The notes beneath the pieces were generated by a model. It searched no databases and had not been told where the DNA came from. It saw only the letters and a list, made by a program, of their open reading frames with translations. 64,000 bases of DNA from Nereocystis luetkeana. Taxonomy: Eukaryota; Sar; Phaeophyceae; Laminariales; Laminariaceae. Where the stretch lies: positions 7,881,420 to 7,945,419 of the forward strand of contig JARUPZ010000021.1 of assembly GCA_031213475.1 (NCBI GenBank), in the 5' to 3' direction. How positions within the stretch are numbered: the stretch's first letter is position 1; every line of letters begins with the position of its first letter. Below are positions 3,006 to 60,500 of this stretch, one piece after another. The translations under genes and the position numbers were made by a program.

Positions 3006-4490
3006 AATCGACTCATTGTATGTTTTTTCCCTGGTATTTTTATTGCCCCATAAAACGTTCCTGGTACAACATTTGTCTATGATGCATGGTGCCGTCGATG
3101 TGGTGCTGCACATCGTGTCGCTGGACCAGATATGACCTATACAGCAGGAGAAACGAGAACCAGGTAAGGGAAGAAGGGTGGTTTTTCTTCAAACCTGGCT
3201 GTGCTGAAGGGTAAAGCAATGTACGTTGTTTTATCAGGCACAGACCAGACTAAGTGATTGGCCTTTGAGAGGCGTATTCTGTTTAAACATGATCGCCGCC
3301 AGGCCACTGGATGATTTACTCCTCCGCATGCTGGGCATAGAGTATCGCAGCAGGAAGACGCCTCGCTCAACGTTGCTGCAAACCGCCCCTGGCACTCCTG
3401 GTGGGCTGTCGAGGCTTCAAGGGACTGAGTGACAGCAGTGGTGTGGAGCCGTTACACGAAGACGGTCAAGGCGCCAACTGGTTCGCAGCAGTGAAACGCT
3501 CGAATCGACGTATCCTGTGGTGGGGGTAGACCAAGATCCTTTTAGGCTGTTCACTCGGGAAGTCTTAAGACTCTACCTCGCTTCAGACCGGACCTCGCAG
3601 AGGCCACATTCAAGCCCAACCCGATGCGCGATTTAATTGGCTAGGCATAGAGGACTATCGACGATGTAAAGTGGGCGCGAGGGACACTGCGCTTTGGTAG
3701 ACCATCAGTTAAGCGCCCTCCACCTCAAAGACGTATAGGCCCGCTACTGTAGTACTTCCTATCCCGTGCGAGTGTCTTGGGGCTTTCGGTTTATCATGAT
3801 CTCAGAAGTGCAGGAGGTGCTACTTTGGAAATCGAATAGTGCACCGCTCTATAGCTGCGCATATACCTGGTATGTAATACGTTTGGACAAACGCTGAACG
3901 TACTGTACCTTCCAACCACTCGCTTTCTTGGCCAGCGCTGATGGCATAGTGTGATGGTTAGATTATACGATGAACCTGTAGACTGCGCGAACTGTAGCCA
4001 TCTTCTTGACACCGCTGTCCCAGTCATGATATCTGCGCACCCTCCTCGTGTTGTCTCACCGAAGGCAGACCGGAATACACATCACGTCCGCCAGACCACT
4101 TGCTACTGTATGTATTGATTGTGCTCAAGAAACAAGACGGAGATGTTCCATCTCACATTATTCGGGAGTTCCGTATCATATTATGTTGATGTGGGATTAC
4201 AAGAACGGGAGATGTAGGCGGAAAATCAGCGGGGCAAAGGGGAGATTCGTTGTGCCGGTAATGATGTTGTGTATAATCACGTGTAAACTTCGCCCTCGGC
4301 TGTCACTTGTTAGATGTAGCTCCATATGAGGCGAGTCGGCTCGACAGCACAGATATATAGTATACAAATGGAGTTCCGTGTTATAGTCTGGAGTCAACCA
4401 CGCGTTCTCGTGCGAGCTGCGTCTATATCGTTAGAGATCAATCAACACACAAGTTGAAAACCGGTGATGTTTTATTGGCAAGCGTAGCCA
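3006..4490. other. Non-coding, nothing recognised
   Basis: No convincing ORF or repeat apart from one copy of the TACCTGGTA motif at 3864-3872. Confidence 0.45.
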
Positions 4491-17609: not shown

Positions 17610-17770
17610 TGTAGCATTTTTCGATAAAGGTTCACCCCGAATTATCTAAGGTTCCTCACTGGAGGAGCTTAATATCTGACCCGAAAACAGACTTCAGCCA
17701 ATGTCCAACTTAATTCCAATCGATATTTACTTGGCCCGAGTATACCAAAAAAGTTTTTTTCGAAACAAGA
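17610..17770 (+). repeat. Dispersed repeat R2, copy 1
   Basis: It aligns with 60340-60500. Shared blocks are GGTTCCTCAC, GAGCTT, AGACTTCAGC, CCGAGTATAC and, upstream, TTCGATAAAGGTTCACC/TACGATAGAGGTCCACC. Near 17797 there is also TAACCCCTTTATTCAGAA, which resembles the left end of the 52.4-kb MITE. Confidence 0.5.
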
Positions 17771-20830: not shown

Positions 20831-20849
20831 AATCGATAAAGAGTAGACC

Positions 20850-21171
20850 TCACATAGTAGGAGAATGTGAAATATGCAAGGAGGAACGGGATGTGTTCGA
20901 AGAGAAGATGAGGGAAATAAACGAATGTGACATGGAGGAGTTTGACACACTAGATAACAGCGAGAAAGCGATCGCGCTATCCTACAAGATGGATGGTGGC
21001 CACACACGGCCAAACAGTAAGGGGATCAGATTAGCAAGACGTTTCTATGTAATATATGGAAACAACATAGTGAGCGCCCAGCTGTTGGAGGTGCCTCTAA
21101 TTAATCGGAGTAGGAACGGTGCTCCGTCTCGAAAGGAATGCGTGGTTAATGATCAAAGGTCAAATGACTAA
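20850..21171 (+). pseudogene. LINE fragment, C-terminal part of a second family
   Basis: The readable frame gives HIVGECEICKEERDVFEEKM, then MEEFDTLDNSEKAIAL and SRNGAPSRKECVVNDQ, ending in a stop at 21171. An HIxGEC segment followed by a charged helix resembles the His/Cys region at the end of non-LTR RT proteins (family knowledge from memory). Only this tail is present, so it is a 5'-truncated or decayed copy. It is unlike the C-terminus of the 6.4-10.6 kb LINE. Confidence 0.5.
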
Positions 21172-21204
21172 AAAAGGCAGCAAATGCGTACGCCCCCCCG
21201 ACCC

Positions 21205-21840
21205 CCCCTCGGGTGAGGGCTGCGTGGTAGGAGGCGTTCAGCAGAGCCCGTCCTCTCAGATATTCGGTGTACACGAGTGTAGTAGTCTTACGCACACTTC
21301 ACACGCGTCAAACGGGGTTCTGTTGGACGGATTTATGCTAGAGCCCGTGCATCACATCATGTGTCTGCTCCGTGTTTCGTCGCCCAGCCCTCTTTGGTTG
21401 ATCCACAGGTGCGCGAGGTTGCTCTTGGTTCCATCTGCCGAATTCTAGACCGAACTGTATGTGGACGCGGACCTGTAACCAGAGCTTAAAAAGCAGCAGT
21501 GAACGCTAGCTTTCAGCGACGATTTCGACGCCACGTGGGGCGGGGAGGTCATGACTGAATCCGTCGTTCAAAGGCGGTAGGTCAATATCGATTCGCACCA
21601 CGGCTTCCCAAGCGGGACCGCGGGCGGACACCGCGTGGGTCTTGCAGTTGCACGCCGTGGGAGGTTTGGTGGGGGGGAATCAGAGCTGACCCCGTCCCCT
21701 CGCGAGGGGGGGGTTGCTTACTCCCCGTTTAGCAGAGTCCGTACTCTGATGAGCTTCGTTATGCGTGAGCGTAGTAGCCCCACACCCTCATGTCATGTGT
21801 TTAACGCGGGTCTGTGTAGTGCATGGAGTATCCTGCACTC
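21205..21840. repeat. Two-copy direct repeat, about 480-bp spacing
   Basis: About 21205-21345 and 21688-21835 share CGTT-AGCAGAG-CCGT, CTCTGA/CTCTCAGA, GAG-GTAGTAG and ACGCGTCAAACGGGGTTCTG/TTTAACGCGGGTCTG. They follow the LINE fragment directly and may be its 3' UTR. Confidence 0.45.
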
Positions 21841-22359
21841 TGCTGCGGGACATACTCTTTCTCGTGCGCAGCGCACACCCATCGTCAGATCTGAGTTCTG
21901 CAAACTCAGGCGAAGGAGGGGGGGCTAGACTCGTCGCCCCGCCAGACGAGACATTGTCCCCCATACTGATCACACTGAAACATGTATACCGGGTGTAAAG
22001 CGTAATGACAAGACAGCACCCGAGCAGTAAACCACACGATCATTGAGAATCCAGGCATCCAAACAGATACAACAGCAATATAGACAAGAAAATATCTATT
22101 ACGCTAGCCGACAAGAACGAGAGGCTATCGTCGCACACGATGCATGAGACCATTCCCCTTCGTACGCCCGCGGGGGACAGAGGGGAAAGGGCAAGGAGGT
22201 GCGAGGAATCGGTGAAAGGCCTTACCGCAGAGAAAAGCAGAGGGAGGAGAAGAGACGAATATGATGCGCTGCTGACGGCACCACCTACCGCATGAACGTC
22301 GCTAGACCGGTCCACAAGCTGCATACGTTTCGTGTCCATGCTTGAAGTACACTACGTGG

Positions 22360-22760
22360 TATATGGTAAGGTGGCACGAGGCTGAGGCTGAGATGAGTAG
22401 GCAGCGCCGCGCATCCGCCGTGGATGGTGCCCAAGGGAACGGGGGGGGAGGGGGCGACAGGAGAAGTGGCAGAAAACCCGACCGAGGGAATGCGGAGAGG
22501 GGGGGGAACAGGAGGGGTAGAAGGGAAACTGGGGTGGTAGACGAAAGTAGGAAGGAGATGGCAGACAGGGTAGCAAGGCACCAGGCCGACTACAAAGTAG
22601 AACATGACCATACTACTAGTGCCACCAACTGGTGCAGCTGGTTCGAACGTGGTCTTCCCTTGTCTTCTCTTTTTGTTTCCTTTTTTTTCTTTTTTGCGCT
22701 GACTCTCCGTGATTTTAATTTTGTTTTTTCTCTTCCTTTTCTGATTGATAAGCCGTACTG
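22360..22760 (+). pseudogene. LINE tail fragment, copy a (same family as 6.4-10.6 kb)
   Basis: It reads MVRWHEAEAEMSRQRRA and then DESRKEMADRVARHQADY, which parallels FMVRWHMDEAQRSRLRHAAE and the ECRNEIINRVARHR remnant at the end of the large LINE. It is followed by the same kind of T-rich 3' UTR. This is a 5'-truncated insertion. The 199-codon antisense ORF (22285-22884) is a shadow. Confidence 0.75.
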
Positions 22761-22839
22761 AAGGATCCGTGTGGCGTTGTGGTGGTTGGATGACGAACCT
22801 GCTATGCTCGTTTCGTATTGTCTGACGCCAAGGGGATGG

Positions 22840-23490
22840 GCATAGCAAGCGAACGCAGGGCGGAAACGGCAGTCTGGGTAGCAAGGTACTAGGCGGATTA
22901 GCAGGGAGAACCTGGCTATACTACTCGTACCACAAACTGCTACCGCCACCTGGAGGGTGCTTTGGGCTTCAGTCTGCGTGTTATTTTCCCTTAGTTTTTT
23001 TTTTTTCCTTGGTTATTTGTCTTACTCTGTTTACAAGCAGTGGTGTTTTTTTTTTTTTTTTTTTTCTTTTTTCCAGCTCGTTTTTTTTCAAGTGTTGGCC
23101 ACCTCGCCTCCGGAGGGGGGGCACGACAGACTGTTTCTCCTAGTTTTGCTTTCATTTTTTTTCTTTTTCTCCTTCTCTTTCCAATGGCTACTTTTGTTTT
23201 TGTTTTCTCTTTTTCTTTTCGTTTCCCTATTTCATAGATTGTGTATGTCGTGCCTGTCGTATCTAGTATGATACCATGACATTGTATTGCCCACAGCAGT
23301 GCTTACTGCATACGTGGCAACGTAGTATCTCTGTGGCGTAGCTTTGTGACCACAGAACTTGTGTCTCTTCTAGGATTGAAGAATCGGCACCGACACTGGT
23401 TGTGCTGGATGTCGACGGGTAGAAAGGACGGTTTAATATGAAGAACACACTATAATACGGAAGCGCTGGCAGTCGTACAGAAACGCGCAG
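22840..23490 (+). mobile_element. LINE tail fragment, copy b, with 3' UTR
   Basis: It begins with another worn copy of the end of the ORF (GAACGCAGGGCGGAAACGGC, GGGTAGCAAGGTAC), then a long T-rich stretch with a run of about 19 T near 23046-23065. A conserved 3' block at 23340-23470 aligns with 10490-10620 of the large LINE: GTGACCACAGAA, TCTCT-CTAGGAT, GGAC/GACACTGG, GGTAGAAA, TTTAAT. Copies a and b lie head to tail. Confidence 0.7.
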
Positions 23491-23737
23491 CATGCGAGAT
23501 ACTTTATGTTCGTAGTTAGCTATCATACCGCAGCAAGTACGGGTCGCTGTCGCTCGCTCGTCTTAGTGACTCGAGATTTGACGGTCATGTAGATAGTCAG
23601 GCAGCCATGCCCGGGGTTCGTCCGTGTACCGACCGCACCGCCTCAGTGATATTCGGGCTCGGCGGGAGTTTGTCAACTTTTGTCGCGAGAACTAGTTAGC
23701 GGCGTGTGCGGTCTAGTCTTTCACCTCTCGTAGAAAT

Positions 23738-24270
23738 CTACCGGTATACTGCGTAGTGTTTCAGCATCATCCAGTGGTTCGCGTTTTCTCTGACATATAC
23801 CGGCATGCTGAACGAATTTTCAACACTGGCGACGTAGTGCTGCATTGGCAACAATGTACCGGCGGGCTGTAGACCAATGCACTAACGTGTGGAGAACTTA
23901 TTAGCCGCGTGTGCGATCTAGGCGTTAACTTATCTTCATAAGGAAACGGCGTGCTGCACAATCGATTCATACGTCCGGTGTTGTACGTTCTTCTGACCAA
24001 TACCGGTATGCTGCAAGGAATTGCGAGTACTTAGGGCTGCACTGCTTCAACTGCACCGACGTGCTGCACGAGCGTTCAACTACGCACCGGTGTGTTGCGT
24101 ATTGTTTTAACAATGCCCAGTATTGTCTGCTCCTAGTGTAGCGGAAACATTGATGAAATTGCCACATCGTACCCCGTCATTCGGCTGCCTAATCCAACAA
24201 TATACCGGCACGCTACACACATTGCCGCCAACACCCAGCATTGCCCGTTCGCAGTGCTGTCTTGTCTGCG
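23738..24270. repeat. Minisatellite, about 30-bp unit
   Basis: There are many degenerate copies of a unit starting with CACCGGYRTGCTGCAC and ending in TTCAAC. Clear starts are near 23740, 23800, 23860, 24000, 24053, 24083 and 24204. Spacings are multiples of about 29-30 bp where copies are preserved. Confidence 0.6.
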
Positions 24271-24279
24271 TTGCCTACC

Positions 24280-24860
24280 CATCTGGGGCCGCAGCTTGGA
24301 ACCGTGTTACGTCACCTCCGCCTGAACTGCCCACTGCGCGATAATCATAGTGTTTTCCTGTAGTGCGCGATGATATTTTTCATACATTTTTCAGCACGGT
24401 GCCAGGATGAATGTGCAAATCTTTACAGATGTGCCCACGCGTACGTAGGTTTTGGTAGCGTTATAGTAAGCTTATGCGGTCTGATTAACCCCAGTTTAGG
24501 GTTGACTTCAACGTCGAGAAATTTCTAGTTGGTCGAGGCGTAATCATGGTATGTATCGTATTAAGGTACCTGCACGTAGATATGCTGAAACGGGGGCAGT
24601 ACATTCGTCCTCTCCCTTGCGTAGGTAGTGCACAAAGGGGGGGTGTTGAGTATGGCTAGATTACCGAGTCAAAGAGCATGCAGCCGGGAGAGCCCAGCGC
24701 CAGTGTTAGTCCAATTTCAGTTTCAGAGCTAAGACGTTTCATGACGCGGATCGCCTAACTCTTACCCGACATGACCGCCGAGTAACGTGTGGGCCGAGCG
24801 CCTGCAGCTGGTGGGCATGCTTCGCTTGTAGGCAAGGCACCACTGAACACGTCACCGTTC
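24280..24860. other. Non-coding, nothing recognised
   Basis: No ORF above 60 codons with domain-like sequence and no repeat seen. Confidence 0.4.
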
Positions 24861-25175
24861 TTTGTCCCGCTCAATTGAAAGAGCCATCATCACGCCGCAC
24901 GCCACCGAACCATGCTCTCCGAAACCACGCCCGCCGAGACCACGCTCGCCCCCTGAGCCCTTGCAGCTTGGAGCGATTGTTAACGGGAGCCTCCAGACTC
25001 ATCGCGGCGCCGTCTCCCTACAGACATCGGGGGATAACGGCTTGGCTGACAGGCAGCTAGGCACCCTCACGTTTCACGACAGTCTTGCCGGAGTAGGGGT
25101 AGGCATATCAGAGGTGTCGCTTCGGCAATCGACGCGTGCATCGGCGACCTCCGTGAGGCTTCGTCCGCTGCCCGA

Positions 25176-25598
25176 TCACATGGCTTGAGATTTGAGGGCA
25201 CCTTGGGCGGCGCCGTCCCCTCCTTTTCGCACGGCGTCGGCGAGTTCGCCATCGACGGGGGTGGTCGGGTAGCGTCCAAGGGGAGGCGGCGGTAGGGAGA
25301 CACATACCTCGTCAGCGGTGATGCCAACGGGTCGTGCGGTGACCTCGGCAGTACCCGGGGGTTGCTCGGGTGGACGCCCCACGAGGGGGGAAGGGTTGCC
25401 GCACGCTAGCATGAGGGCCTCAGCGTCGTCATCGAGATAGAGGGCGGGGTGACGCTCTCCAGCACGGCTTCCGCTGCATCGCTGAAGCCATTCCACACGA
25501 GGCCGTCTGATGTCCGGCACCCCATGGAGGATACGTTCAAGAAGATGGCGTGGGGAGCGAACCTGGGCTTGGAGGGCACTCAACTGCAGCAGCCCCAA
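25176..25598 (-). CDS. Unidentified 140-codon ORF in a GC-rich patch
   Basis: The ORF is MGLLQLSALQAQVRSPRHLL... followed by LDDDAEALMLACGNPSPLVG and a C-terminus with TPVDGELADAVRKGGDGAAQ. It has no signal peptide or membrane segment. An acidic segment and a Pro-rich segment are visible, and the composition is more protein-like than its neighbours. No family is recognised, and a 108-codon + ORF (24862-25188) partly overlaps. It could be an exon, or a fossil fragment of a mobile element. Confidence 0.25.
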   Translation of the reverse strand: MGLLQLSALQAQVRSPRHLLERILHGVPDIRRPRVEWLQRCSGSRAGERHPALYLDDDAEALMLACGNPSPLVGRPPEQPPGTAEVTARPVGITADEVCVSLPPPPLGRYPTTPVDGELADAVRKGGDGAAQGALKSQAM

Positions 25599-25719
25599 TG
25601 TACACCCTCCTGGACCGGAGGCGCGGGGTCAACGCGACCAGGGTAACGAGATGGGGCTACCGCTGGCGGTACCTCAACGGGGTGACTTCGGGGTTCTCTC
25701 GTTATTATTCACGTAGGTT

Positions 25720-26830
25720 TTCCAGCCGAACTTCGACTGTTGGTGGATTTTCGTTGTTCCCGATGGCTCCAAAGCCTCTGTGTGTCAACGAATTATTTGT
25801 TTAGAGAAATGTGAACACAATTTTAGCGACAACAGTTGTGGTTGTGATATAATATTGATTACTTAATGTTGTTTGTTTTTGTCGTCACTTTCATTTTCCG
25901 GCTGAACTCGTACGATGTTTTTTTCACCTATCGATCTTATGGAGAAGCCGTGACCGCAAATGTCACCCCCCCCCCCCCCGGTATGTGCCTTCGTTTTTTT
26001 GGGCATAATATATATTCAGAAGTTTTCGCCATTCGCACTGCTCAACGACTTGCATTTAATTATCATTGAAGTCACGCTGTTGGGCTTTTAGCGAACATGT
26101 TATACTTATGAAAACGTCGCTACGACTATGCACTATGTGTAAGAGACCTTAACCCACGAAATTGATATTTTAGTAGTCGCGCGGGACACCGAACTAAAAC
26201 GCCACCGAGGGCGGTAGGTATAACACATTTATATGATGACCAACACCTCTAAACTGTTTTTTTTCGCTGAAATTCATTTTTGCAAGCTGTCTGTGGTGCT
26301 TATTTAGTAGTGGCATTCGATCGCGTCTACTACGGGTTTTGTGCTGCCTCGTGCGGGATGCACAATCGGTTTGTAAGGAAGTCAAAAAGTGAACGTGCAA
26401 AATTCAAAGAGTGTTGAAAAACAATTCAAACCAATTTCCGAGGTTGCACTGAGCTCACCACGGGTGGGTGTATCTTTTCCCACTCGTAAATTCCATAACC
26501 TGTGTGTATGTTCCGAGTACTATTACATCCTATGTCGGAAAAATAAGTGGGGCGTGCCCGGACCAATTTCCACTTACGATGCAGGCGGAGACATGCCGAG
26601 TATTATCGAGGCACCGGGGAAGCGTTTATTGCATTGTTGAGTCCAGTCTAACCCAATGGCGTGCAACAAGATGTCGGATAGTACACACATCCCTGGTATA
26701 CACTAAGACGCAGAAATATGACAGGACCTGAAGGAGGATCAAGTCATCCGCGACGCAGATACTAGGACATTCATACCTGCTATATACTAAGACGCAGACA
26801 TTCCAGGAGTGGCGGCAACATAGTAGCGCG
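25720..26830. other. Non-coding, nothing recognised
   Basis: AT-rich, with a poly-C run near 25966-25979. GGTATA-ACTAAGACGCAGA recurs near 26695 and 26780, about 85 bp apart, as a small local duplication. Confidence 0.4.
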
Positions 26831-26835
26831 CTCGG

Positions 26836-29800
26836 AATGCCTTCTTAGGCCCTCACATAATACGGAATAACGTACGCAGATATCATGTAAATGTAAGGCC
26901 GCTTGAGGCGTTCTACGTTTTGTAGAGATACATAATTTTTTCGTGGTCGATACGCGTACCGCCTCAGGCCAAACGATCAGCAGGACGCGTGGTACGATAG
27001 TAGTGGTAGGATATTTTTCCCGGAAATATTAGGCCTAACGGGGTCCTTGACCCAAAATCATTGAATTGCCGTTATTAAGTTGCGAACATTTTGTCGTGAG
27101 CCTAAGTCGTGGAGTTGTTGATCGGGCTTCATTTTTTAGTTACTTGTTTAAGTCGTTTTTTAGATGTATGTTGCAGGTATTAAACTCCCCAAACAAGTAG
27201 AATCGGGAAATTCGTTGGGTGCACCCTTTGCGTAGCATTTTGTCGTAGGCATCTAACGAAGGCTGTGGTTGCACATATCATACGATGTAAAATGTTGTCC
27301 TCCGCTCCGATGATGTCGACAAGAGGTCGCAAGTCTTCCTCGGCCCTTTAGTATACACCTACCTGTCTGGCAACATCATGCTTCGCCCCCAAACTCTCTT
27401 TTGTGGACAGTTTAACTGCTGCTCCAGCCGGATCGAGGACAGTTGAACTTTATGCAGCGTCGCCCAGGCTGCGCCGTGCATAGTGGGCTTAGATATGGGT
27501 AAGTCATGATGAGCCCTGTAATATTCTAGGTCGACGACTACCATACCTGTAGGCAAGTTGCCGCTTCCATTTCCACTCCTGTTTATATTTATTTGTTCGG
27601 CGGGTTTTCTTACACCTCTTTGTCCCTGCTGCACGTAGAAACCTATCTAAATGCTCCGCGAGTGGTAACGAGTAGCGCGTCAAACATGGATTGCGTTTTG
27701 ACGTACACGAACGCTCTTGCCGTGTCATCGTTGCTCTTCGCGTGGTTTAGGCTGCCGTAGGGGGTGTAAGCCAGTTATCACGACAGCCTTTCGACAAACC
27801 GCGCGGGTGACCCTGTGCGTGTACCTTCAATCCGAAAATGTACATAAATATTTGTGTTGTCGACGCCGATTAACAGAGCATTAAAAACGGCATCCGTATC
27901 GCGGAGCCTGTACATCATTTGAAACCGTAGCATTTTGATCGTGTTGCCGCAGAAGGTGTTCGGGTTTACTTCCTATATAGTATGGGAGCTGAATGAAATA
28001 TGTGTTGACACACGTGTTGCCCACCTGAGAAACTGTTCAGTTCCTCTCTGACCCTGTGTGCGTTTGACGTCGATATTTGGTTTGCCCGGAGGTAGCCCAT
28101 GATCGTGTGTATCGAGATGACCGTGTAAAGTTGCTCAATGTCGGCATCTATCTGAGTGAAACACAGCGCTCTGTTTGCTTCACCTCTACGTACCGACAAG
28201 TAAGTCGATTTCGCCGGAGCTCGTGCTTTGAGAGGCCGAAGAGGTATTACAGCGTGTGTCCGCTTTTCCGTTATTATTGTTGTTTCTAACCTTTTGCCCC
28301 CTCTTGATAACCAAACAGACAGGCCCTACCTGCACCAACGGTCTGTCCGGTGTCCAATCAAGCTCCATCTGTTGCGAAGCTCAGTGCGAGGCCTGCGGAG
28401 GAGCCGGTTGCGGCGGGCACCGCTGTGGCGAGGTTCGTTGGTGGTTGTTGCTTTCGTCTCTCGTCCCCTGTTGTTAGCGGGCGCCCCTAGCGAAGCATGC
28501 AGCTCAGTTTTTTCCCGGCGTCGAGAGTGGCGGAAGGTTTGAAGGCGAAATCTGTCGGTCTGGAGTCTGGCAAAAAGCACTTAACTTGTAGATAGGTGCT
28601 GCGTACGGCGACAGGTAGGTGTTGCCCCTCTGAGATCAACGAGGTTTTGGCTGATGGCCATCCAATGCATTCTGAACCGATATATATCTGGTCTGACCGA
28701 GTTTCTCTTCATATACGTCAGCTTACCTTCTTCGTGGATTTGGGTACAGGGCTTACGAGTTTGCATTGCTTGAATAAAACCTTAAGTACTCGGGTGCTAC
28801 TGTGGGGGCAACGCACTCAAATCGTGGGTGCTGTGATCCTAAACCGGGACTGTACCCATGATTGCTTCAAATAGGGAGTGGGTGCGACAAGTTGAAGTTT
28901 TTAAGCGGGGAGCCTAACATTTTTTGGGTGTTGCCCGCACCGTACCTCCAGCTGGAACACACTTGCTGTGATCGCCCGCCGACACTGGCCGGTCTGACAA
29001 ACGCAATACACTCCTCGCCCTTGCCCCATCCTGTAGGAAGCCTGCTGCACCGGCCGAATCGAAGACAGTCGAGTGTCCTGCGACGTTACGATGACGGCGC
29101 CTTGCATCGTTTAAGAGGGCGCGGACGACGACGTTGGCTTCACGACAGGTATGATGTGACATACGATGCCAGCACCCTGTAGAGCGCAGCCCGAGTCGTA
29201 CCAGTAAAACAAAGACGGCAAACTCAGTTGGCAAACACGGAAGCTGCTTCGTAAATATCTGGTAGCTTGTATCTGTGTAAAGCGGATAATGTGTAGCTTC
29301 CCCAGGCCTCGAATAATCTCCACAGAATCATCCGCTGTACTTATTTTTTCGGAGTTTTGTATCGACCGTGGAATCGGAATATCATCCGTGTGCGTGACAG
29401 GATTTTCTCGACATATATATAGCATTTTCCGACGAAACTATGTTGGGTTCAAGAGATTACACTGTGTGCAAACGCCCTGTCGGTTGAGGAACTATGGTGT
29501 GTACATTTGGGGCGTTTATGCCGCGGTCGAACGAGATGAAAAACGCTGATCGAAAATAACTCTGTGAGATGGCTAGACCAGCTCGGGGTGTACGCATATT
29601 ATTGTGGAGCACAATCGTGGTATACGAGCCGGGGTGCACACCAGGAATAGACCGGGGCGCGTGCTACGACAGAGGCAGGACCGCCTTTTTTAATCATGGA
29701 GCTCCCTAATTCTTCTGGAATCGCTCGTCTTGTTTGGGGTCAGGGATGGTGCACCATATTGGTATTACACAGTTTTTTAACAGACACGGCGATGACTATA

Positions 29801-47935: not shown

Positions 47936-50900
47936 ATGAAAGTCGGGTACGTGCTTCTGGGGCTGGTGACACTGACGTCCATTCATGTTTCGAGCGGTGA
48001 GCACTCTTCTTGGTGATGGGTTTTGATGACGCACCCACTAGCTCAGGCGTAAACAAATCGCAAGGGGGGGGACGGGGTTGGATGGTCCACTTGGCGATCT
48101 GGTTGGAAAGTTCTATTATATATATATGAGGGAATTTGGCTGGTGACTCCGATTAACATCAGACGCTCTGGCTCAACTATGGGTTCTGTTGATAGGTGTA
48201 GTCCTTCGTCTGGTTATATTTTTAGCGGAATGCCTTGGTAACCCGCGGGTTGCCAGACACATTTCGGAACTCCTAGCTGAAATCTCCTAGTAGTACTCGC
48301 TACGCCTAACACCATGCACCCGCCTGTACAGCACATCAATCTGCTTCCCTTGCCCCTCCCGCCGAATAATGACCTCTTATTATAGCTGCATACAATAAGC
48401 GCAGATTCCCAATCGAAAATACCCAATCTGTGGATCTCACAGTGGGAGCAATGTGTTGACTGACTCTAACCTCCAAAACATGTGTACCGACCACCCAATA
48501 GTGGGACTCCCAGACGGCGTGTTGAATTGAATCTGAAATTACTAACTTGAGTACCAACCACTCAATCGGTGGAACTCACAGCTGGCGTGTTTGGGTTGAA
48601 TCTAACGACCTATTATTGCCAAATAAATGCAGCTTTCCGAGGGTATGTTTCGGGGTAGGGGGTAGTTGTGGTGTTCAGCGTAAGGGATTTAGGGGGTGCC
48701 CCTGGAAGGTTTCACGAGTGGTTACAAAATATTGTCGCAACCCGCGTGGGCTACAGGTAGGCGCTCGCTTACACCCGCTGCAAAGGCGACACACTCACTG
48801 TTGAACAGTACCAGGTAGTCTAGAGAGAAACGGAATGATTTTCCCGGGTCGACGTTTTTCAAGCTATCCGTACTTGTTATGTATGCTGTATATATCGCAA
48901 CAGCACAGAAGATGGTAAAAAAACATGTAACTGGTTGAGGGGAGGGTTTTTGATATATTGTTTTTGTGCTTGCCTTCCGACTATGTGCAGCATGAACTTT
49001 AAAGTTGATCACTCAAAACATTCCTATGTTAATTTTTGCTGTAACTGTGTGCCTGACGAATAGAACATCCATTTTGCATATTACGCCCTTCCTTTGGAAC
49101 AGTAGTAGAACCTCAACACACTTCAATATCAACACAGCAAGAAATGACGTCGGAACAATTTGTGCTATATTTGAAACACTTGTTGTACATTTACCGTAAA
49201 AAGGTAGGGCCATGGGAATACTTCCTCAGATCGTTCATTATTTTTGAATGATTTCAAAGGCAGTATTTTGGCGAGTGACCTCGCTCGCGAAGCGAAGAAC
49301 CTCAGGTTATTTATGTGCACCGTTACAAGGAGGATTCGTCTGAGTAGTCTTTGAAATATCTTCCTACCCCGTGCACTTCCCGTGAGCATTCGCATAGTTC
49401 CAATCGTTTGGCGTTAAGAACAACCGTTATCGACCGTACCCACGCTCGCCGCGCTGCGTGCTTGTGATATATATATGCGGAAGGCCAATGCAGCAACGGC
49501 TTGGCGGGAGTCGACAATAACGACATCTGCTGCGATGCTGAGTGCGGCGCATGCGGAGGAAGCGGTTGCTCCAAGCGACCGGGCGGCGGGGTTAGTCGTG
49601 TTTGCTGAAATCTGGTGCAACTTTGTAGGGATGCGAAGTAGTTGGCGTACACAGCGTTACGGAGTCCAACATGCGCAACAAAAACTGTAAAAAGGCTTGA
49701 AAGCTAAATACGATACCTGGTATGCAATTGCATGAGCTACAGCTATACAGTAGGTACATCTGACGAACACCGTTGTTGTAGTACACGCATCGGATGCGAA
49801 AATATCTGGCAGCCTCTTGTCCGTTGAAGAAGCCTACCACTTCCGTTCATTGGGGCTCCAACGTGCCCTTCCTACCGTGGCCCGGCCCGTGCGCGACGTC
49901 TTATAAATTAGTAGATCGACCGGCGTAGGGCAGGCAGTCGTGCTCGACCTCCAACATCGACCTGTGTGACAAAAGCTTTCCGACGCTCTCGCCCCCCTTT
50001 TTTTGTTTACAGTCCAACTGTTGCTCCGGCATGATCAGGGACAGTGGAAGTTTGTGCAGCATCGCCCAGGTTGCGCCATGCATCATTGACGATGGCCTTG
50101 AAGGTGCGTCTCGAGAAGCTGGACCTTGACCAGCGACCAACGCCTTTCTTCCTTGAGTTCGGAGCTTTCGTGGCATCTGTTTTTTTTGTGCTTCTTCGGC
50201 TGTTACTCCTCAACGGCTGCACCAGCCAACAGGGGCAGTAGCATGGTGTCCAGCGACACCCAGGAGGCTCCGTGCATCGTCTAGAACGACGATGCATCCA
50301 ACGGAAATCTGGCTAGACCTTTAACTACCCCCAATGATAGCTTGGCATTTAGTTTTCATGGCTTCTGGTTGTGCTTCTTTTGCGGTTCACTTTGCGATGC
50401 TCTCGCTGCTGTTTGTGCCGTAGAAATGTGCCTAAATGTTCCGTGCCGGGTATCTATCTGTCTGCCGAAAAGGGGTACGTCAAACATGTCGAAGCTTGAC
50501 GAACTTACACCCCCTGCGATGCGTGCTGCTGTCGTGCAGAAGTTTGCAGTAACGGCATCCCGGGGGTCGACGATGGCGAGGTCTGCTGCAGTGGTTCCTG
50601 CGGGAGTTGCGGAGGGAGCGGTTGCTCCAGACGACCCGGCGGAGGGGTTAGTTGGTGCCTGTGAAAAACGCGTTCTGCCGTGGCGATACGAAATATTCAG
50701 CCTGAGTTCGATCAAGTTGTACAGAGTTCAATACCTCACCTGACACTACTAGGAGTATTCAAAACGTACGCTGAGCCCAATATTTTGGAATATGAACTAC
50801 CCGCGGGTAGGCCTGTGATTTTGCAATGTTGTTTTCTCAAAACATGGTCTTGGACGTTATTGGCTCGAGCAATTTCATCACAGACCGACTATTCACAGCA

Positions 50901-53900
50901 CAGCAAAGTGCCGAGCACGAACCGAGAAAGGATGTTCTTTCAAAATTTTCGAACTCTCGTATCTGCAAACCTACACACCTCGTAAAACGCGCGATCGACT
51001 ATGACGCCCGGATTTCAATTACGACGTAGTACGAGTTTTGAGAAAATGTTCCATCTGTTTTTGTCTCCGTCATAATACATGTGTTCTGCAGCCGGATTTT
51101 GAATTCTCCTGGGTTTTCTGGTTTTTCTAGAGCTGCACATACTTGAGCACCTTTATGTGACGACAGACTTTTCTTTGTTGGAGGGTCAGCGTGAGAACAA
51201 TAACAAGAAGGAAGGAGCAAATACAGCAAATAAATAGAGTAGACAAGCTGAAAGTTGGCACGGAAGGGAGGTAGACTTGGTGCATGGCTTTCCTTTTGTT
51301 TCCGAGGTTTTCTTCTTTCTTTCGGGAAAGTTAGGAGTGATCCATGATGGAAGACCATGCTGCACATTGTCGGATGGCAAGAGAAATAATAATAATAACA
51401 AGAAGAGCAGCAGTAGTGCATGGTTTCTCTCCATAATGATTGTCCTTTGCCTCCCCAGTCATGCTCATCAGTCCAACTCGTATCCAGTAAGTTTTACCCT
51501 CAGCCGGTTTTCTGGGCAGGTTGTGGTCAGGGGTGTGGCCTCTTCTTCCCCCCCGGGTACCCTCCTTCACTTACTTTTATCTCGCACTCGGCTACACTAC
51601 TGACTGCTCGTCGATTCCCTTTGGATGTTGGTAAGTCACGCTCTCGGGCGTTCCGCTCATCAATTTTTGCGCAAAACGTCCCTACGAGTATGTATGCACT
51701 CGATGAGAGTCGAACCCACGGAATTGATCTCATTAGACACGAGAACCGCCTACCAAGTTGTTATTATTGGGGAGCTTTTTGTCCCCCATTTTTTCGACAT
51801 TTATTTATTTATTTGTTTCGCGCTAATTTTCAATCTTCCATATTATTATCCTGATTTTTTGTTTTTTCCCGAATGTATGTATAGTATGTGTAAAATTTGA
51901 CAAACTCTTTTTTTTTTGCTTCTTCTGGATAGCTTCATGAATAGTGACAGAACGCCTCCGAAAATTGATTCGTATCTCTACCTTTTTTCAAGCTTCGGAA
52001 ACTATGATGGAAAAATCCCCCTCCGATCCAAATGAGCCAGGGGGGACGGGAGGTTTCGTATATTATTATTAAAAAAAAAAACTGAAAAACGACGGTGGCT
52101 GTGATATTAATAATTGAGGATTCCGTAAGAATTCATCCCCCAGATTGAGGAAAGACAGAAACGGAAGCTGCAGAATCCAAGGAGTATACGTACGTCTCTA
52201 TACCCTGAGGTTGCACGGAGTTTTCTGGTGTGTCTTTATTTTTATACATACCTCGGGATTCCGTTGCGTAAGAGATATTTTTCGGTGTGTATATTTATTT
52301 CAGATTCACTTGGTATCACAGCAGTTATATACCAGGTATTATACGTAAATATCTGCATGCCACCATTACTATGACCCGAGTAGGACCGACCAAGCGGTGT
52401 TAACCCCTTTATTTAGAACCGCAGTCCCGTTTTGGGGACAAACTACTTGAAATTTGACTGGTTTGTCCCACAAACGGGACTGCGGTTCTAAAGGGGTTAA
52501 AGAACAATTATTAATAGAGATATGACATACATGTGGTCTATATTTTGGAGGGGCGTGCGAAGATTAAATTCCACTCGCGCGGCAGGGTGAAGACATACAT
52601 ATACATGAAGACATGCAAGGACTAAATTTGTGACTTTCAATAGATGATGCGCATTCATTTTTCCGATAAAAAAGCCGAGGCACGATAACGACAATAATCT
52701 TCTAATCCTCCTGCTCTGTACAAGACTGCTACCGACCGTGAAATCGAAGCTTTCGTCGATCGAACCTCATGTATATATATTTCCAAGCCGTGTGTGTGAT
52801 AATAATGCTGATCGTGGGTATACGCCGCGGTTCTCAGCTCCGACGATAGTGGATACCTGGTAGAGTGCAATCGGTTTGTTTGTGACTTGGCGCATTGATT
52901 TTTTTTCCTGTCGTACATTGATACCGCTACATCGTTTGAGGTATTCGTAGTGAAAGCACAGATATCGCTCATCATCAGCAGTATTAACACTATTATTAAC
53001 AATAATACCTAGAAGTATAGTGTTATAGTATAACAGATACTCGTGCTCGTAAATAGTTGCTCCCAGTTATTGAGGCATTTCTCGCGGCTTTCGCCGAAAC
53101 GTCGAGTCTCAACGTACGAGAACGCCTTATACTTTTTAGACAGAAAGCGCTTGTTGGGTAGGCCCGCTGTTCTGACCGTCGAACGCTTGCTTGCATATGC
53201 CCCCGTACCCTGGTGCCATCATGTTATACCAGGTAGGTGCACGAATACCCGTAGATGTGCCACGCGCGTACGTACGATCAACAGTGAATGCTTTGTTTTT
53301 CCTGCAACAATGCTTGGTCTCGTCACCGCTCCGACGCTTCGAGGCCACCGCCCCGCAAGACGTTATTTTCGTTGGTGGTGTCGTGTCGGCGTCGTCTCTG
53401 ATTTCATAAACGCGGGCCCTTCGTTTCCCAAAGTATATACCTTTCTCGAGAGCGGCGCACACGATTTAAATTAGTGTATTCGTTTTATTTGCGGTGTCAA
53501 GTCTATTTTTTTGGACCTGGTGTGCAGTGTCTGCTTGTTGTGCGATTTAGGGGCGGTCTCATACTGGAGAGCAACAAGAAGTCGCATCAAACATGTGTCC
53601 TCTATTATACCAGGTATACGCTAAGTAACTGAGCCACCCCACACGGTAGGGTTTGCACTTTTTTGAGTCAAACAAATCTGGCCACTCGAGTTCCTTAAGT
53701 GAGGAACTACCTGTTGGGATGAAAATATTTCTCGTTGTGTTCATTTTAGGGCTAGGGCATACAGGTGGTGCCGGTCTGGTGACACGAACGAATTTCTTCT
53801 TGGTATTATATCGGGTGATATATTGAGCTCCTAATGGGGGGGACTCAGGAACTTCTGGTGCACCCCGACTGTGGGAGATGGCTCGTGTGCAGTGTCTGCT

Positions 53901-56900
53901 TGTTTGATTCAGGGGCGTTTTCGTACCGGAGAGCAACCAAACGTCGCCTTCAAACACGTGTACTGTATATATACGCTAATAAGACGCAAGGGGTTCGCAT
54001 AATTTACACCACAACCCCCTGAATGAAGCAGAAACAGTTTTGGGGTAATTTCTTTCCTGTTTACGTACTCCAAAAAAGTGCGGGGTTTCCCAATATTTGC
54101 TTGTACTGGGTCGTCGGCAGACATACGAGCTGGGGCAGCCAACGTGCTGCCCAATCGGTTGATTGTCAACACCCGGCTCGATTGTACGTATTTGGATGCG
54201 ATTTGTTTGCGCGGTGTTCATCATGCACCAACGCATTATTAGTGGAAAGCAAGCCTTTTTTCTCGTTTTTTTCCCGAGAGATAAGACCGATACAAGTTTC
54301 AAGTTCTAATTCGCAGTGGTTCACCCGACACGGCGGCCCGATGGTTTATCCGTTTTTTGCTGGCCCAGCTCGTACATACCTAGAACTGCAGTAACAGAAT
54401 CACCCTCGCCATGCCTTCCTAGGCACTCACATATTACGGGAGTACGAACACCGCAATCAAGAATTTATGTGTTGGCTTGAGGCGCTTTGGTTTTTTCGTG
54501 CATGTCGTATTTTTCTTTAAAATTTTGTCGATGCCATACTTTTTTGTGGTCGACACGCACAAAATGTTAATGTTGTTGTTGTAGTAGTAGGTCTAACAAT
54601 ACTAGGGCTTGTGGTACGATACGTAGTGGTAGCATGTTTTTTCTGAGATATGTCTGGCCGGCGGAGTCCCTAACCCACATCCGTTGGAGTACCGTTCCTC
54701 TCTTCTTACGAAATCATTTTCGTGAACATCAAGCTGTTGGATTGTTGATCGGGCTGCACTTTTTAAGATATTTCAAAATCGTTTTTTGGCCGTATGCAGG
54801 CATAAAAATCACGTGAGGAGTATGTATCGCTACACAACATTATTAGGTGCACCCTTACAACGGCATGCATCGTAGGTATCTAGTAAATAAATACTGTGGG
54901 GCATAGAACAACTCATGCGAAATGCTTTTTTTGCAAACCCTCGCCCTCCGATCAGGGGTCTTATCACATCATTTCATTTATGGGCTGAAGCGGGCACTCT
55001 TCTGTGATCCGGCTCGGGGACAGGTACCACACCTCGGTAGACCGACCATCGTATGACAGGCAGACGCGCTGCGCTCAGCCTCCCCAACATCTACTCGTCT
55101 GACAAAAGCATGCTTCGCCCTTTCCCCTTGCTTCTGTAAACAGGACAACTGCTGCCAGAGTCGGATCATGGAGAGTGAAGTTTTGTGCAGCGTTTCCCTG
55201 GCGGCGCCGTGCATTATGGACGACGTAGGTGCGTCTCTAGAAACGCGACTTATACTGTTGAGCGTCTATCACCCCTAGTCGAGTTGTTTTCGCTTTCGTG
55301 GCTACTCCCTGTACCTGTTAGGATGCTTCATTTACACAGCTGTATGTCCGCTGCATGTGGCAATGTATCCTAATCCTCTTTGGAGTGGAACGTCAAGCGT
55401 GAATTGCGGTTTGACGAACACGATAGTTCATCAATCTGTGTCATAGTTGCGCCCCCTATGATTCAGGCTACCGTACATGGTGTATCCGAATATACACAAC
55501 CGACTTTGGAAGAAACACGAGGGTGGCCGTGTGCGTTTACTCCATAAAAAAAAAAAAGACTATTGGTTTGTCGACCCCGCGCAACGGGCATTTCCTGTGC
55601 GACGCGTACCGCGGAGCCTAAACACTAGAAACCATTCGTCCAGCTGTTCAGAGACTCTGGCCCCTGTTTTGTTCTTATTTGAGATACAGACGCAGGTCAA
55701 TCCATTGTACGGTATAGGGGGGGTACTACAGCAGCTGGCCGAAAATCAAACCGACACGCGGGTCTCCCCGCCTGGGAACCTACGCATTTTCTTTTTTGAC
55801 CCCGTGTACATTTATTTGACGTCAAGAGTTGATTCACGCCTAGGTAGCCCATGTTGGTATGTACTTAGTTTACGAAAGAGCTTGCAGATTGCGTAAGGTC
55901 GGCGTCTTCGGGAATAAAGCGCTCATTGTGATGAGTAGCCTGAGGGAACAGCAGTGCTTAATCCCTACCGTAGCCCGTGTCGTTTCCGCCTGAGAACTTG
56001 TGCTCTGTGCGGCCTACGAGGAAATACACGCTGCGTCTTCGCATCTCAGATACCGTTTTGAACTCCTTGCCTCCCCTTGAAACTGATACAGAGCCTACTT
56101 GCACCAACGGTTTGCCTGGCGTGCAAACGAACTCCGTCTGTTGCGAGGCCCAGTGCGAGCTGTGCGGAGGAGCCGGCTGCAGCATTCGCCCGGGCGGCGA
56201 GGTTCGTTGGCGGCTGTTGCTCTGCCTCTAGCTCTGTTAAGAGGCGCCTCTAGAGAAACGCGCAGTTTAGCGTTTTCCCCCGTCGAACACGGGCGGAGGC
56301 TTGGAGCCACCAAAAAAGTGTTCGTGTAGCGTCTGGCAGAGAGGCGTAGACTGCTCGCCCCTCCTACATCAGCAAGTCTGACGAGCAGTGTTTGATCCTG
56401 CGGCATATTTGATTTTGTGGTGGACGAATGCTGTATGTGCGGGAAGAAAAGGTAGAAATCTGACAATTGTACTTGCAGGGGGTGTTTGCTGGGTTTGGGT
56501 TAGGTTGGCGCCATCTCCTTGTTTGTTGCCTCATGCTTGCATTGTGGGAACTCCAATTGCATGTATAGTCGCGTCCGCACACTTGTATCTTAAACAACCT
56601 TTAGGACAAAATCTAACAACCTTTACCACAATCTTGTCTAAATTGTAACAACCTTTACGACAAAATATAACAACATTGAAAACCTTTCTTATGGCTTTGG
56701 ACAGGGCGGTATGGCCCCGGCATAGCAGCAGCCTTTAATCTCAGCCTTCCTGACGAAATCATTCCTTGTCCCTTTTCTCGGCCCACAGGACGCCTGCTGC
56801 ACAACCCAAATCATGGTCAATGGCGCGAACTGCAGTACCACCATGGCCGCGCCGTGCATCGTCGACGGTGAGCATTCGTCGTGTTTTTGTACCTACAACC

Positions 56901-59808
56901 AAATCAACTCGTACAACACCTTCGAATCGTATACACTTTTCCTGGTTTCGGTTTATATGCGCTTCTTCGGCATTGGGCTTTAGACACCTATCCGCTGCAT
57001 GCGGTAGCGTACCGTTCATACCTCTGGAGTTCTCGTAGCAAGTTGTACGCCAAGTAAACGGCATGTTTCGCGGGATGTGAACGATTGAGCTGGTCGGAAT
57101 TGCGCTTCCGGTTGTGAAGCGTGCCACGATATCTAGAGGCAAGTTTTTGTTCGACAAAGTGTCACTGGGACCGACGCGTTCCCCAACGAAGGAACTACCC
57201 AACTTCGTCAGACGCTTGCTACGATATAGGTGGCCCGCTTTGGCAGGTCCTTCTCCGAATTACGGGCGCGCGCTAGAATCGTCGTTTGGTTCTGGGTGGA
57301 CGTCATTTTTTGTAGTATGTGCACTCTTATTTTGGGACGTGGGATTGTTCATCGGGTACAGTAGCAGTAAAGTTACAGTTTCGTCCAAACTTAGTTTTGT
57401 GTTTGTGAGTGAGGGATAGTGCTGCATTCCAAATCATGCGAAGAGACTCCGAAACAAATGGCGCACCTAGTACTGCAGCCCGCGTTGTTAATGTGGTTGT
57501 TGGTTTTCAATCTTTTTCGATTTTCGCCTTTAGTGGCTATTGGTGAGGCGTCCGTTTTATTTCTTTTGTCATAACCGGTTTTTCGCAGAGGCATCACATT
57601 TCTTCAAGTTGGAAGCCTCAAAAATAACTGGCGCTGCCCTTACTGAAAGAAATCACAAGCCTTGAGGTGGTGCGAGCGAGCGGGCGGGCGGGCGGGGGTG
57701 TGAGGGGAGAGAGACACCGACCACTGACGGGAGGATCTTTTGCAGCGCTCGCACCGTGTGCGTGTCTACCCAAGCGTCCGACCCACGTCTAGTCCAGTTC
57801 AACCTGGCTGGGTGTAAGGCAATCGTTCGAGGTCTACAACACTGCCTGTAGAAACCGCCTAAATAGTTGCTTCTAAAACACACGCGATTTGTTTTTCAGC
57901 AATTGTTCGTGGACGGTCATTCGCCAAAATCATAGCATCTCCGGCCTGTTGTGGATGTGTAGACGTTTGTGCCTTTTCCGGATCCGACGCTCGTGACTCC
58001 GCACTTCTGCCTGCGGTCGCCATACATATGATATTTTTTTGTCGAAACAGGGGACTTCCCCCCGGTGCCCGTGGAGTTCTGCAGCAACGGTGTGATTGGC
58101 GTCGAAGAGGACGGCTTCTGCTGCGAGGCTGACTGCGGGACATGCGGAGGAATCGGATGCAGCAAGCGTCCCGGTGGCGGGGTGCGTTGGTAGATAGTGT
58201 CAGACGCATGCTGCAGTACGGAGGCATCATTTTGTTTCCGAACTTCACCGCTTGCAGAGCTCTTACGCCTCACCCAAACATAGAGCTTCAGAAATCTCCA
58301 ACCTCTTAACAGTATTCCTAGTAGTGTGGCTCCCTAGGTACCCAAAACTATAATTTTACCCCACGTCTATAATTTGGGATTCCGACGAGTTTGGGCTAAG
58401 GAGCACCGTCATCATGATGAACGCATTATAACCAAGTTTGGCTATACCTCTATTGTGGCATGCATCGTCAAATCTCGCCTCGATGCGTGCAACGATGCAT
58501 GAGGCGCTTTTGATCTGCGTACTACAGCAGGCGTGTCTCGAGGGTGTGCCTCAACCGACGCGCTATAAACCCAGTGTCGTTGGAACCACAACTAGTTATT
58601 TACAATGTTACTCGTCGTAATACTGGGACATGTCGTTGCTCGGTGGGTGACAATGCTGGTCTTTCGTTTCCTGTAATTGGGTTTTATGGACCCCCACAAA
58701 GGGAAAGACCCTCAGAAACGGTTGGTGCACACCCCCACCGTAGAGGATGCCCACCCCCCTTTTGGCGAGCATACGCTAGAAGACTAGTCTAGCACGACTT
58801 GAATTTCTCCTCGTCGAGGTTGGAGAATATCTCGCACGATCGAGTGCGTTGACTGGCATATTGGCCATGCTAAGGTAGATATCTGCGCGTTCAAGCACAG
58901 ACGCGTGTCGCGACAGACAGGTGTACGTATATTGTTCGACCACACCGTCCTGACTGGCGGACCTCTTCACAAAAAGACGTACCAATCTTCCCCTCAAGAA
59001 TCAGGATCATTTCTGCATTATTAGCTCTGAATACGAACGGTCCTTGCGTGTGTACACCCAGGCTATGAAACTGCTTACCGCGATGCAATATACATCTGAT
59101 TGCGCGAGGAATAGAGCTCTCCGTCTAAATAGCACGAACGGATGCCGGTTCACCCCACTCGTGTCGTAAAGCATGCGCCCCTCCCTCGCCAGGCGTTTCT
59201 TGCGAACCCTGTCGGTCGAGTTCGCATGGAAAACACGGGGGCGGCTTGCACGCAGAAGTAGGAAAATGAATGCTACGTACGACGGCAGGTGTTGATCCTT
59301 CGAGGCCGAACATAGGTATCACCGATGGGACCCCTCAGCCAATGTAGCCGAGAATGCCACTTGTTGCCCTTTGGTCCGATGTCTGGTTGACATAAGTTTA
59401 GCTCAGATACCTTACTCTACTCCTGTAGTAGTGTACCGGGCCTATTCTCTTGAATTGGTTGTTTAACGCTCGTGGTACTCCAATCCCGTTCGTTGTGGAG
59501 TCAAACCCACATCAGTGTTGTTTACTTCTATCCCCGAGCAGAGAAGGTGCAGTCGTACCAGCGTCAAGTCGGGTGTTGACGCGATAATTTTCACTCCTCA
59601 TGTGAGTAGCCTCTCCCGCGTGTAACACACGGTGTCCCCTCGGCGGATAAATGCGTGCGGTGTTCAGCCCCCGACACTGGTCGATCTCACGAGCAACGCA
59701 TGCCCCGCCCCTGCCCCCTTCGTCTTGTAGGAGGCCTGCTGCACCAGCCGAATCGAAGAGAGTGGAGTGTCCTGCAACTCTACCCTGGCGGCACCGTGCA
59801 TCGTCTAG
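47936..59808 (+). CDS. Secreted cysteine-rich protein with four CGGxGC/APCI modules, nine exons, 282 aa
   Basis: Exons: 47936-47996, 49484-49590, 50013-50103, 50540-50646, 55144-55228, 56092-56201, 56789-56867, 58051-58181 and 59731-59808. Exon 1 (MKVGYVLLGLVTLTSIHVSS) is a classic signal peptide with donor G|GTGAGC. Exons then alternate A, B, A, B... Every A starts in phase 1 and ends in phase 0; every B starts in phase 0 and ends in phase 1, until the last ends APCIV-TAG. The sum is 849 bases with no internal stop. Each module fits C-x12-CC-x3-C-x2-C-x4-C-x9-CC-x10-C-x7-C exactly, giving 40 cysteines. Possible N-glycosylation sites are NCS (module 3) and NST (module 4). It is likely secreted or in the cell wall, disulfide-rich, perhaps binding or structural; no catalytic domain is seen. 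All acceptors are AG after C or T except the weak GGAAG before exon 2. Similar repeats occur, as I recall, in stramenopile hypothetical proteins; function unknown. Confidence 0.8.
48417..48616. repeat. Minisatellite in intron 1, about 67-bp unit, three copies
   Basis: GTACC-ACCAC-CAAT, then ACTC-CAG-GGCGTGTT, then TTGAATCT recurs at 48496 and 48550. A worn third copy lies at about 48419. Confidence 0.6.
50213..50283 (+). pseudogene. Relic of an extra terminal B exon inside intron 3
   Basis: GGCTGCACCAGCC, GTGTCC and CCGTGCATCGTCTAG match the last exon of the gene (59731-59808), including its stop codon. The reading frame is lost between the two cysteine pairs. It records an earlier duplication in which a terminal exon sat here. 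Confidence 0.55.
51480..51760 (-). repeat. tRNA-derived SINE (repeat R4, copy 2)
   Basis: Read on the minus strand, the tRNA-like head is at about 51760-51690: A-box-like AACTTGGTAGGCGG and B-box GGGTTCGACTCTC, with a 5-bp T-stem that includes wobble pairs. The body aligns with 40290-40510, and the head aligns with the head at 43.5 kb. Confidence 0.55.
52400..52500. mobile_element. 101-bp palindromic MITE flanked by TTAA
   Basis: Left TTAACCCCTTTA, then GAACCGCAGTCCCGTTTTGG; right, inverted, TTAACCCCTTTAGAACCGCA, then GTCCCGTTTGTGG. TIRs cover about 40 bp on each side, leaving a short centre. The ends read TTAA, so a TTAA target (piggyBac-like) is possible. Diverged copies lie at 36344 and 60249. 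Confidence 0.75.
53519..53995 (-). repeat. Dispersed repeat R1, copy 2, bounded by direct repeats
   Basis: About 53519-53630 and 53889-53995 are direct repeats (GTGTGCAGTGTCTGCTTGTT, AGGGGCG, GGAGAGCAAC-AA, GTCGC-TCAAACA-GTGT, TATACGCTAA). Between them lies the segment that matches the reverse complement of 16560-16890. The layout resembles a small element with end repeats, but no coding domain is readable. Confidence 0.55.
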
Positions 59809-60248
59809 GAGAATGCGGACGACGATTGCTAAGTGACAGGTACGATATATTTCATTAGCTCGTGGGATGCTGGTCCCGCTGTATTCAAGACCCGGTACTT
59901 TGCCGGCGTTTTCCCGACGTAGTATTGTTGCTCTAACGTTTTGTGTAGACCTTTTTCGTTAAAACAGTCGATTGCCTCTGGCCTCAAATTCGTAATATGT
60001 TATAGGAGCGGTGGGGTATAGTGGAAGTTTCAACAAAACGAAGGTCGGCAACTTGTCAAACAGCGGGAAAGAAAACGAGAAACCTCGGAATCCCAGATAT
60101 AACGCGTGGACGAGGGCATAAAAGCCGTAGTAAGAAACAGGAATAGACCAGGACGCGTGCTACGATAAAGGTAGGGATTATTTGAATGACGGGGTTCCTT
60201 ACCCCCAAAATCGGTAGAATATCATAATTTGTGGTGTACGTATCGTTG

Positions 60249-60340: not shown

Positions 60341-60500
60341 GCGTTCTACGATAGAGGTCCACCGCGAATTTTTTTATGGTTCCTCACCTGGGGAGCTTCA
60401 TCCCTCACTCGAAACCAGACTTCAGCAAAAATCCAGCTTCATCCCGACTAATAATTTCATGGTCCGAGTATACAATAATGATTATTTTCGCACGCGTCAG
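60340..60500 (+). repeat. Dispersed repeat R2, copy 2
   Basis: It aligns with 17610-17770 (GGTTCCTCAC, GAGCTT, AGACTTCAGC, CCGAGTATAC). Its first part (CTACGATAGAGGT) also resembles CTACGATAAAGGT at 60160 and CTACGACAGAGGC at 29668. Confidence 0.5.

Follow-up and report, generated by a model that had tools for sequence, protein, structure and literature searches.

Fungal hydrophobins are secreted proteins in which eight cysteines follow the order C..CC..C..C..CC..C. WAP, granulin and hevein-type (CBM18) repeats are small disulfide modules that contain vicinal cysteines. The IMMEDIATE UPRIGHT family of the brown algae is cysteine-rich, its repeat being a Cys/His motif. Here we describe a gene whose product consists of a hydrophobic leader followed by four ten-cysteine modules. 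It lies in a 64-kb stretch of eukaryotic-looking DNA, referred to throughout as the window, with a G+C content of 45-56% across 2-kb steps. Introns and composition point to a brown alga as its probable source. Sequence comparison has shown the module to be homologous to the C-terminal domain of predicted surface proteins of bacteria. We put it a little short of an even chance that the gene encodes a secreted protein in which four tandem modules of an unnamed family, homologous to the accessory of a bacterial enzyme-like protein, act as a tetravalent binder of wall polysaccharide.

Gene structure and the ten-cysteine module

The gene runs from 47936 to 59808 on the forward strand and comprises nine exons, which join to 849 nt and encode 282 amino acids followed by a TAG stop. 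Each module is divided between an A exon and a B exon. These eight half-module exons were located by a pattern scan and their splice sites by reading of the flanks; all eight were found by the pattern scan, in the joined frame and in a six-frame profile search.

47936..47996, + strand: exon 1, start codon and predicted signal peptide MKVGYVLLGLVTLTSIHVSS, phase 1 at its end
49484..49590, + strand: exon A1, first half of module 1, phase 1 in and phase 0 out
50013..50103, + strand: exon B1, second half of module 1
50540..50646, + strand: exon A2, first half of module 2
55144..55228, + strand: exon B2, second half of module 2
56092..56201, + strand: exon A3, first half of module 3
56789..56867, + strand: exon B3, second half of module 3
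58051..58181, + strand: exon A4, first half of module 4 and a short Pro/Val linker
59731..59808, + strand: exon B4, second half of module 4 and the TAG stop

All eight introns begin with GT and end with AG. The A exons are entered in phase 1 and left in phase 0, and the B exons are entered in phase 0 and left in phase 1, except for B4, which ends the frame. The inner (A-B) intron occupies the identical position in all four modules. An A+B pair is symmetrical (phase 1/phase 1) and can therefore be duplicated with the frame unbroken. The four A-B splices are independently supported, since the x9 spacing that they create across the intron equals the x9 of the intronless bacterial module described below. 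For the phase-1 junctions between modules and for the leader exon, the support consists of phase and consensus. The leader exon has no known homologue; at thresholds that were set post hoc, first-order Markov sequence should yield one as good 0.03 times per 2 kb, or 0.11 times over the 5.5 kb that was scanned. A poorer signal-peptide-like candidate with a phase-1 donor is present upstream of the gene, at 44702 (+).

The joined translation confirms the original prediction of nine exons that run in frame from a signal peptide to a stop, with the eight module exons open and the splice phases in agreement. Chance assembly of the exons was considered and rejected on the exact cysteine spacing, the agreement of phases and the existence of a bacterial homologue. 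The four-module gene is eukaryotic and very probably intact, with a product predicted to be secreted.

The pattern C-x12-CC-x3-C-x2-C-x4-C-x9-CC-x10-C-x7-C occurs exactly four times in the joined protein, as had been claimed from the sequence by eye. Among the four modules 25 of 57 columns are invariant, including all ten cysteine columns (P 7.6e-5 under random invariance), and the cysteine codons are kept in 40 of 40 cases (38 TGC, 2 TGT). The conserved core is made up of Gly, Pro and Cys (CGGxGC, PGG), and other residues are variable. The cysteines presumably form disulfides. In the six-frame search of the window the half-module exons score between E 4e-21 and 1.2e-14, with profiles built from those same exons. 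The six pairs of modules give dN/dS values of 0.57, 0.61, 0.54, 0.40, 0.50 and 0.62. These values indicate purifying selection between modules that is only moderate (0.50-0.62 in five pairs, 0.40 in one), which we count against our main reading. A structural model of one module had also been proposed; the AlphaFold model of the module of a bacterial protein (L001, below) was made from one sequence, has a pLDDT of 51 and is unusable for a fold search.

The whole protein matches no Pfam or PHROGs family at E up to 10 (HMMER filters on). In NCBIfam and the PDB it finds only chance stretches of cystathionine beta-lyase (best PDB E 0.13). A profile of 19 modules, the four from the window and 15 from bacteria, gives a best PDB E of 1.3, and the PDB matches overall are to unrelated enzymes. 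The sole match of the 19 modules in Pfam at E up to 10, again with HMMER filters on, is a chance match of one member to SPEG_u2 (E 0.2). The Pfam models of hydrophobins, WAP, granulin and CBM18 are matched neither by the whole protein nor by the 19 modules. No description of the ten-cysteine domain was recognised in the open-access literature as far as its texts were available, including the available parts of PMC11468063 and PMC12629598. The suggestion that the signature belongs to no named domain is thus borne out in Pfam, NCBIfam, PHROGs and PDB sequences, where no match is credible, and by this measure the module is a domain family unnamed in any library searched.

Related copies and other elements in the window

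The window contains further copies of parts of the gene, which were not mentioned in the original prediction.

26831..29679, + strand: partial, decayed segmental duplicate, collinear with 54405-60175, recognised as blastn blocks in order
27411..27485, + strand: copy of B2 (B2') with an in-frame TGA
28323..28432, + strand: copy of A3 (A3'), open, with the RPGG stretch replaced (GCGGHRCGE)
29037..29114, + strand: copy of B4, open, with a TAA stop
3080..3410, - strand: degenerate half modules, A-like then B-like, in different frames (E 0.053 and 1.4e-4)

The blastn blocks that start at 54405, 54611, 55087, 55383, 55979, 59656 and 60138 correspond, in the same order, to those that start at 26831, 26989, 27355, 27670, 28204, 28964 and 29642. 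Only B2, A3 and B4 are represented in the duplicate, and no counterpart of B3 or A4 was found within it. No leader-exon candidate is present upstream of the duplicate (20001-28320, +) or of the minus-strand remnant (9000-3420). Two other matches, with E 0.43 at 14182 (-) and 0.6 at 58532 (-), do not rise above chance.

Between the gene and this copy dN/dS, calculated without the stop codon, is 0.19/0.58 = 0.33, and the cysteine codons are conserved in 14 of 14 cases, so that constraint probably acted on the protein during much of the time since the duplication. The exons are 72-82% identical to the decayed copy, which is not above the alignable flanks (70-87%), and we count this against constraint. 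The predicted selection on the cysteine framework agrees with the comparison to the copy and with the conservation of the spacing as far as bacteria. dN/dS is below 1 both between modules and against the copy, with the qualification already made that the inter-module values are only moderately low.

A truncated neighbour with a stop codon and other weak remnants could indicate that the gene is itself a relic, or a set of mis-joined exons from which no protein is made. We regard this as very improbable, as all frames are open, every cysteine codon is kept, the splice sites are consensus, the leader exon is above chance and the A-B junction reproduces the intronless bacterial x9 in four of four modules. 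A gene that still encodes its protein remains our reading of the locus.

The window also carries a broken reverse transcriptase at 7110-10126 (+), which we take to be of the non-LTR type. It consists of two overlapping frames that match RVT_1 (1.8e-12 and 1.5e-5, the second below the cut-off), preceded by a frame at 7110-7631 that appears endonuclease-like by eye and has no Pfam match. An inverted pair of dispersed repeats (53637-53885 and 16856-16615, 76% identical) has its first member within the 4.5-kb intron of the gene, and another dispersed repeat has copies at 60341-60490 and 17614-17762 (74%). RNA families and tRNAs were searched for across the 64 kb and none was found.

Bacterial homologues and their partner protein

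A scan of genome_contigs (84,980 species), with patterns that fit only one of the 15 bacterial modules, returned two candidates, L001 and L002. L001 is a 645-residue protein from the 'Deltaproteobacteria' MAG HCUG1432-5, whose phylum is probably Myxococcota, and it bears a C-terminal module with all ten cysteines. L002, from Bythopirellula, was rejected as a relative; the match covers only residues 31-58 and falls in an 87-residue frame that overlaps a longer one. When 377 genomes of the L001 phylum were searched with a profile, 16 gave a match, of which 15 are real; the remaining genome (G050) is without the ten-cysteine pattern and was dropped. With a fuller profile these 15 were recovered again, together with seven weak matches (E 0.0024-0.01) that are excluded from our count of 15 bacterial modules. 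In the order of one genome, G252, the module is present in four of 26 genomes, all four already among those known.

The module was found in none of 392 genomes of the phylum of the Bythopirellula MAG, a search that had no positive control. Viral contigs yielded no relative in three scans with alignments A1, A2 and A3; the pattern of the last scan, CGxCGGxGC, is present in every one of the 15 bacterial modules and, by eye, in three of the four in the window. No module was found in phages, queried with the window modules only, or in plasmids.

The bacterial module is single-copy and intronless, and in 15 of 15 cases it lies within 10 residues of the C-terminus of the frame. The core CC-x3-C-x2-C-x4-C-x9-CC-x10-C is present in all 15 bacterial and all four window modules. 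The loop lengths in bacteria are 8-10, 3, 2, 4, 9, 10 and 6-7. The spacing predicted to be fixed is therefore fixed in the four window modules and, for its core, in bacteria, but the lengths of the x12 and x7 loops do not hold throughout the family. The motifs CGGxGC and PGG and a terminal PC are conserved, and 18 columns are invariant over the 19 modules. In a tree the four window modules cluster apart from those of bacteria (94/87), as tandem duplication predicts; 12 of the 16 inner branches are unresolved. On these sequence comparisons we conclude that the module is real and old. The original prediction mentioned related repeats in stramenopile hypothetical proteins; a link to those alone would be too narrow because the family reaches bacteria.

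The bacterial module is attached to a partner protein that is common to 13 long frames, aligned over the whole partner, and whose C-terminal part can be recognised by eye in two short frames. Among the long frames a lipobox-like signal is clear by eye in ten and unclear in two, and in one it is lost at a contig end. Weak though consistent matches indicate that the partner is probably a pectate-lyase-like beta-helix. Of the ten partner proteins scanned, two match PF12708, with E values of 0.0016 and 0.023 that fall short of its cut-off. The other eight show no sign of PF12708 up to E 0.1, and we count this against the beta-helix reading. DUF4955, DUF6298, DUF6374 and PCB_OB also appear in the partner scans, below their own cut-offs. 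A putative pectin lyase (PDB 7chu) matches the partner with E 5.3e-5 over about 60 positions.

Relatives of the partner occur in nine plasmid records, with no detectable module. Three of these were examined; one has an F5/8 type C domain at the N-terminus and two have DUF6298 at the C-terminus. Glycan-degradation genes lie close by, namely GH95, GH140 and GH43, or one for a polysaccharide lyase. Relatives of the L001 partner at about 33% identity are also encoded in MT837463.1 and MT835659.1, two unannotated records classed as phages from human faeces. In two of the bacterial proteins (L030 and L036) Dicty_CTDC repeats (PF00526, 1.1e-17 and 1.1e-11), which are cysteine-rich and named from a eukaryote, precede the beta-helix.

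The beta-helix was found in 20 of 356 genomes of the L001 phylum. Every one of the 12 long matches with at least 48% identity is in a module-bearing genome, and one further short match is a contig-end piece in G234. The other seven, at 36-42% identity, come from genomes in which the module gave no strong match. Two of the genomes with the module (G139 and G372) are absent from the 20 and may lie outside the 356. The module thus appears, from these distributions, to behave as an optional terminal accessory of a surface protein of the cell-wall-polysaccharide type.

The module might instead be a mere cap or stability domain at the C-terminus of the beta-helix, with the eukaryotic copies co-opted for an unrelated role. 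Its C-terminal position in 15 of 15 proteins would suit a cap, as would its occurrence with only one beta-helix clade in the sampled phylum. More distant beta-helix relatives do without it, however, and by eye a short stretch, often with prolines, separates the core from the module, so we think this explanation unlikely. Another alternative is a structural protein of the wall or of adhesion, in which the modules are rigid spacers that link each other or other proteins and have no specific sugar ligand. Tandem modules with a conserved Gly/Pro/Cys core and otherwise variable residues would be expected of such a protein, but a spacer or a polymer-former has no need of a module that is single and terminal in all 15 bacterial cases. 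We give the spacer a small but real chance. A polysaccharide-binding module is the reading that we follow below.

A profile search of the six frames of the window for the beta-helix core gave nothing at E up to 1, so it is the domain and not the whole protein that belongs to the bacterial family. In bacteria the module is appended to a putative lyase-like protein, and the gene in the window has no such partner.

Proposed function and comparison with known systems

The bacterial context suggests that the module grips cell-wall sugars, and by analogy with carbohydrate-binding modules its likeliest role is to keep a surface attached to wall polysaccharide. In bacteria it would hold an enzyme-like protein on the cell-wall polysaccharide. 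In the eukaryote, probably a brown alga, it would serve by itself, repeated in tandem, in a secreted protein of the matrix or lectin-like type. A tetravalent binder could have arisen as phase-1/phase-1 units of two exons each were duplicated in tandem, and as no such catalytic part was found in the window, the four consecutive binding units would make the product a tetravalent matrix protein. Such a protein may sit in the extracellular polysaccharide matrix, or cross-link it by avidity. Of the roles named in the original prediction, 'cell-wall protein' seems to fit the bacterial context better than 'adhesion' or 'defence'.

A role in defence would make the module a small disulfide-rich inhibitor or antimicrobial unit that acts outside the cell against microbes or their proteases, in the manner of multi-domain WAP-type inhibitors. 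Predicted secretion, cysteine richness, tandem modules and variable loops are all compatible with this, and duplication with decay in the neighbourhood resembles birth-and-death families. Yet a Pfam search at E up to 10 gives neither WAP nor any other inhibitor family, in bacteria the module belongs to a surface protein that resembles polysaccharide lyases, and dN/dS is below 1; we consider defence improbable and prefer the wall-polysaccharide binder.

A broader proposal, which we hold tentatively and think somewhat doubtful as a whole, is that the module founds an undescribed disulfide-stabilised family of wall-polysaccharide binders in bacteria and a eukaryote that is probably a brown alga. 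The single-copy bacterial accessory or its ancestor would have passed between the kingdoms, in a direction that can at most be surmised, gained an intron at a fixed place and, multiplied as symmetrical phase-1 exon pairs, become a tetravalent lectin in the matrix of a multicellular alga, independent of any enzyme. The bacteria offer a single-domain form of the family with a clear context, which makes its function testable on a simple form. If the module does bind wall polysaccharide, the gene would illustrate how an alga built matrix proteins from an enzyme accessory that is also present in bacteria.

The closest counterpart is the bacterial C-terminal domain, which has in common with the window module its ten cysteines, core spacing, CGGxGC, PGG and terminal PC. 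It differs in being single-copy, intronless and fused to a beta-helix, with a first loop of 8-10 rather than 12 residues and a last loop of 6-7 rather than 7. Carbohydrate-binding modules and F5/8 type C (discoidin) domains are likewise an optional terminal addition to a beta-helix enzyme-like core, as the bacterial module is, but no sequence relation was seen, and discoidin was found at the N-terminus whereas the module is C-terminal. IMMEDIATE UPRIGHT proteins and the window module are both cysteine-rich; the spacing of the Cys/His repeat probably differs from that of the module. WAP, granulin and CBM18 repeats also differ from the module in spacing, and their Pfam models are unmatched at E up to 10. 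Fungal hydrophobins share secretion and an ordered subset of the cysteines with the module, which has ten cysteines rather than eight and no match to their Pfam model.
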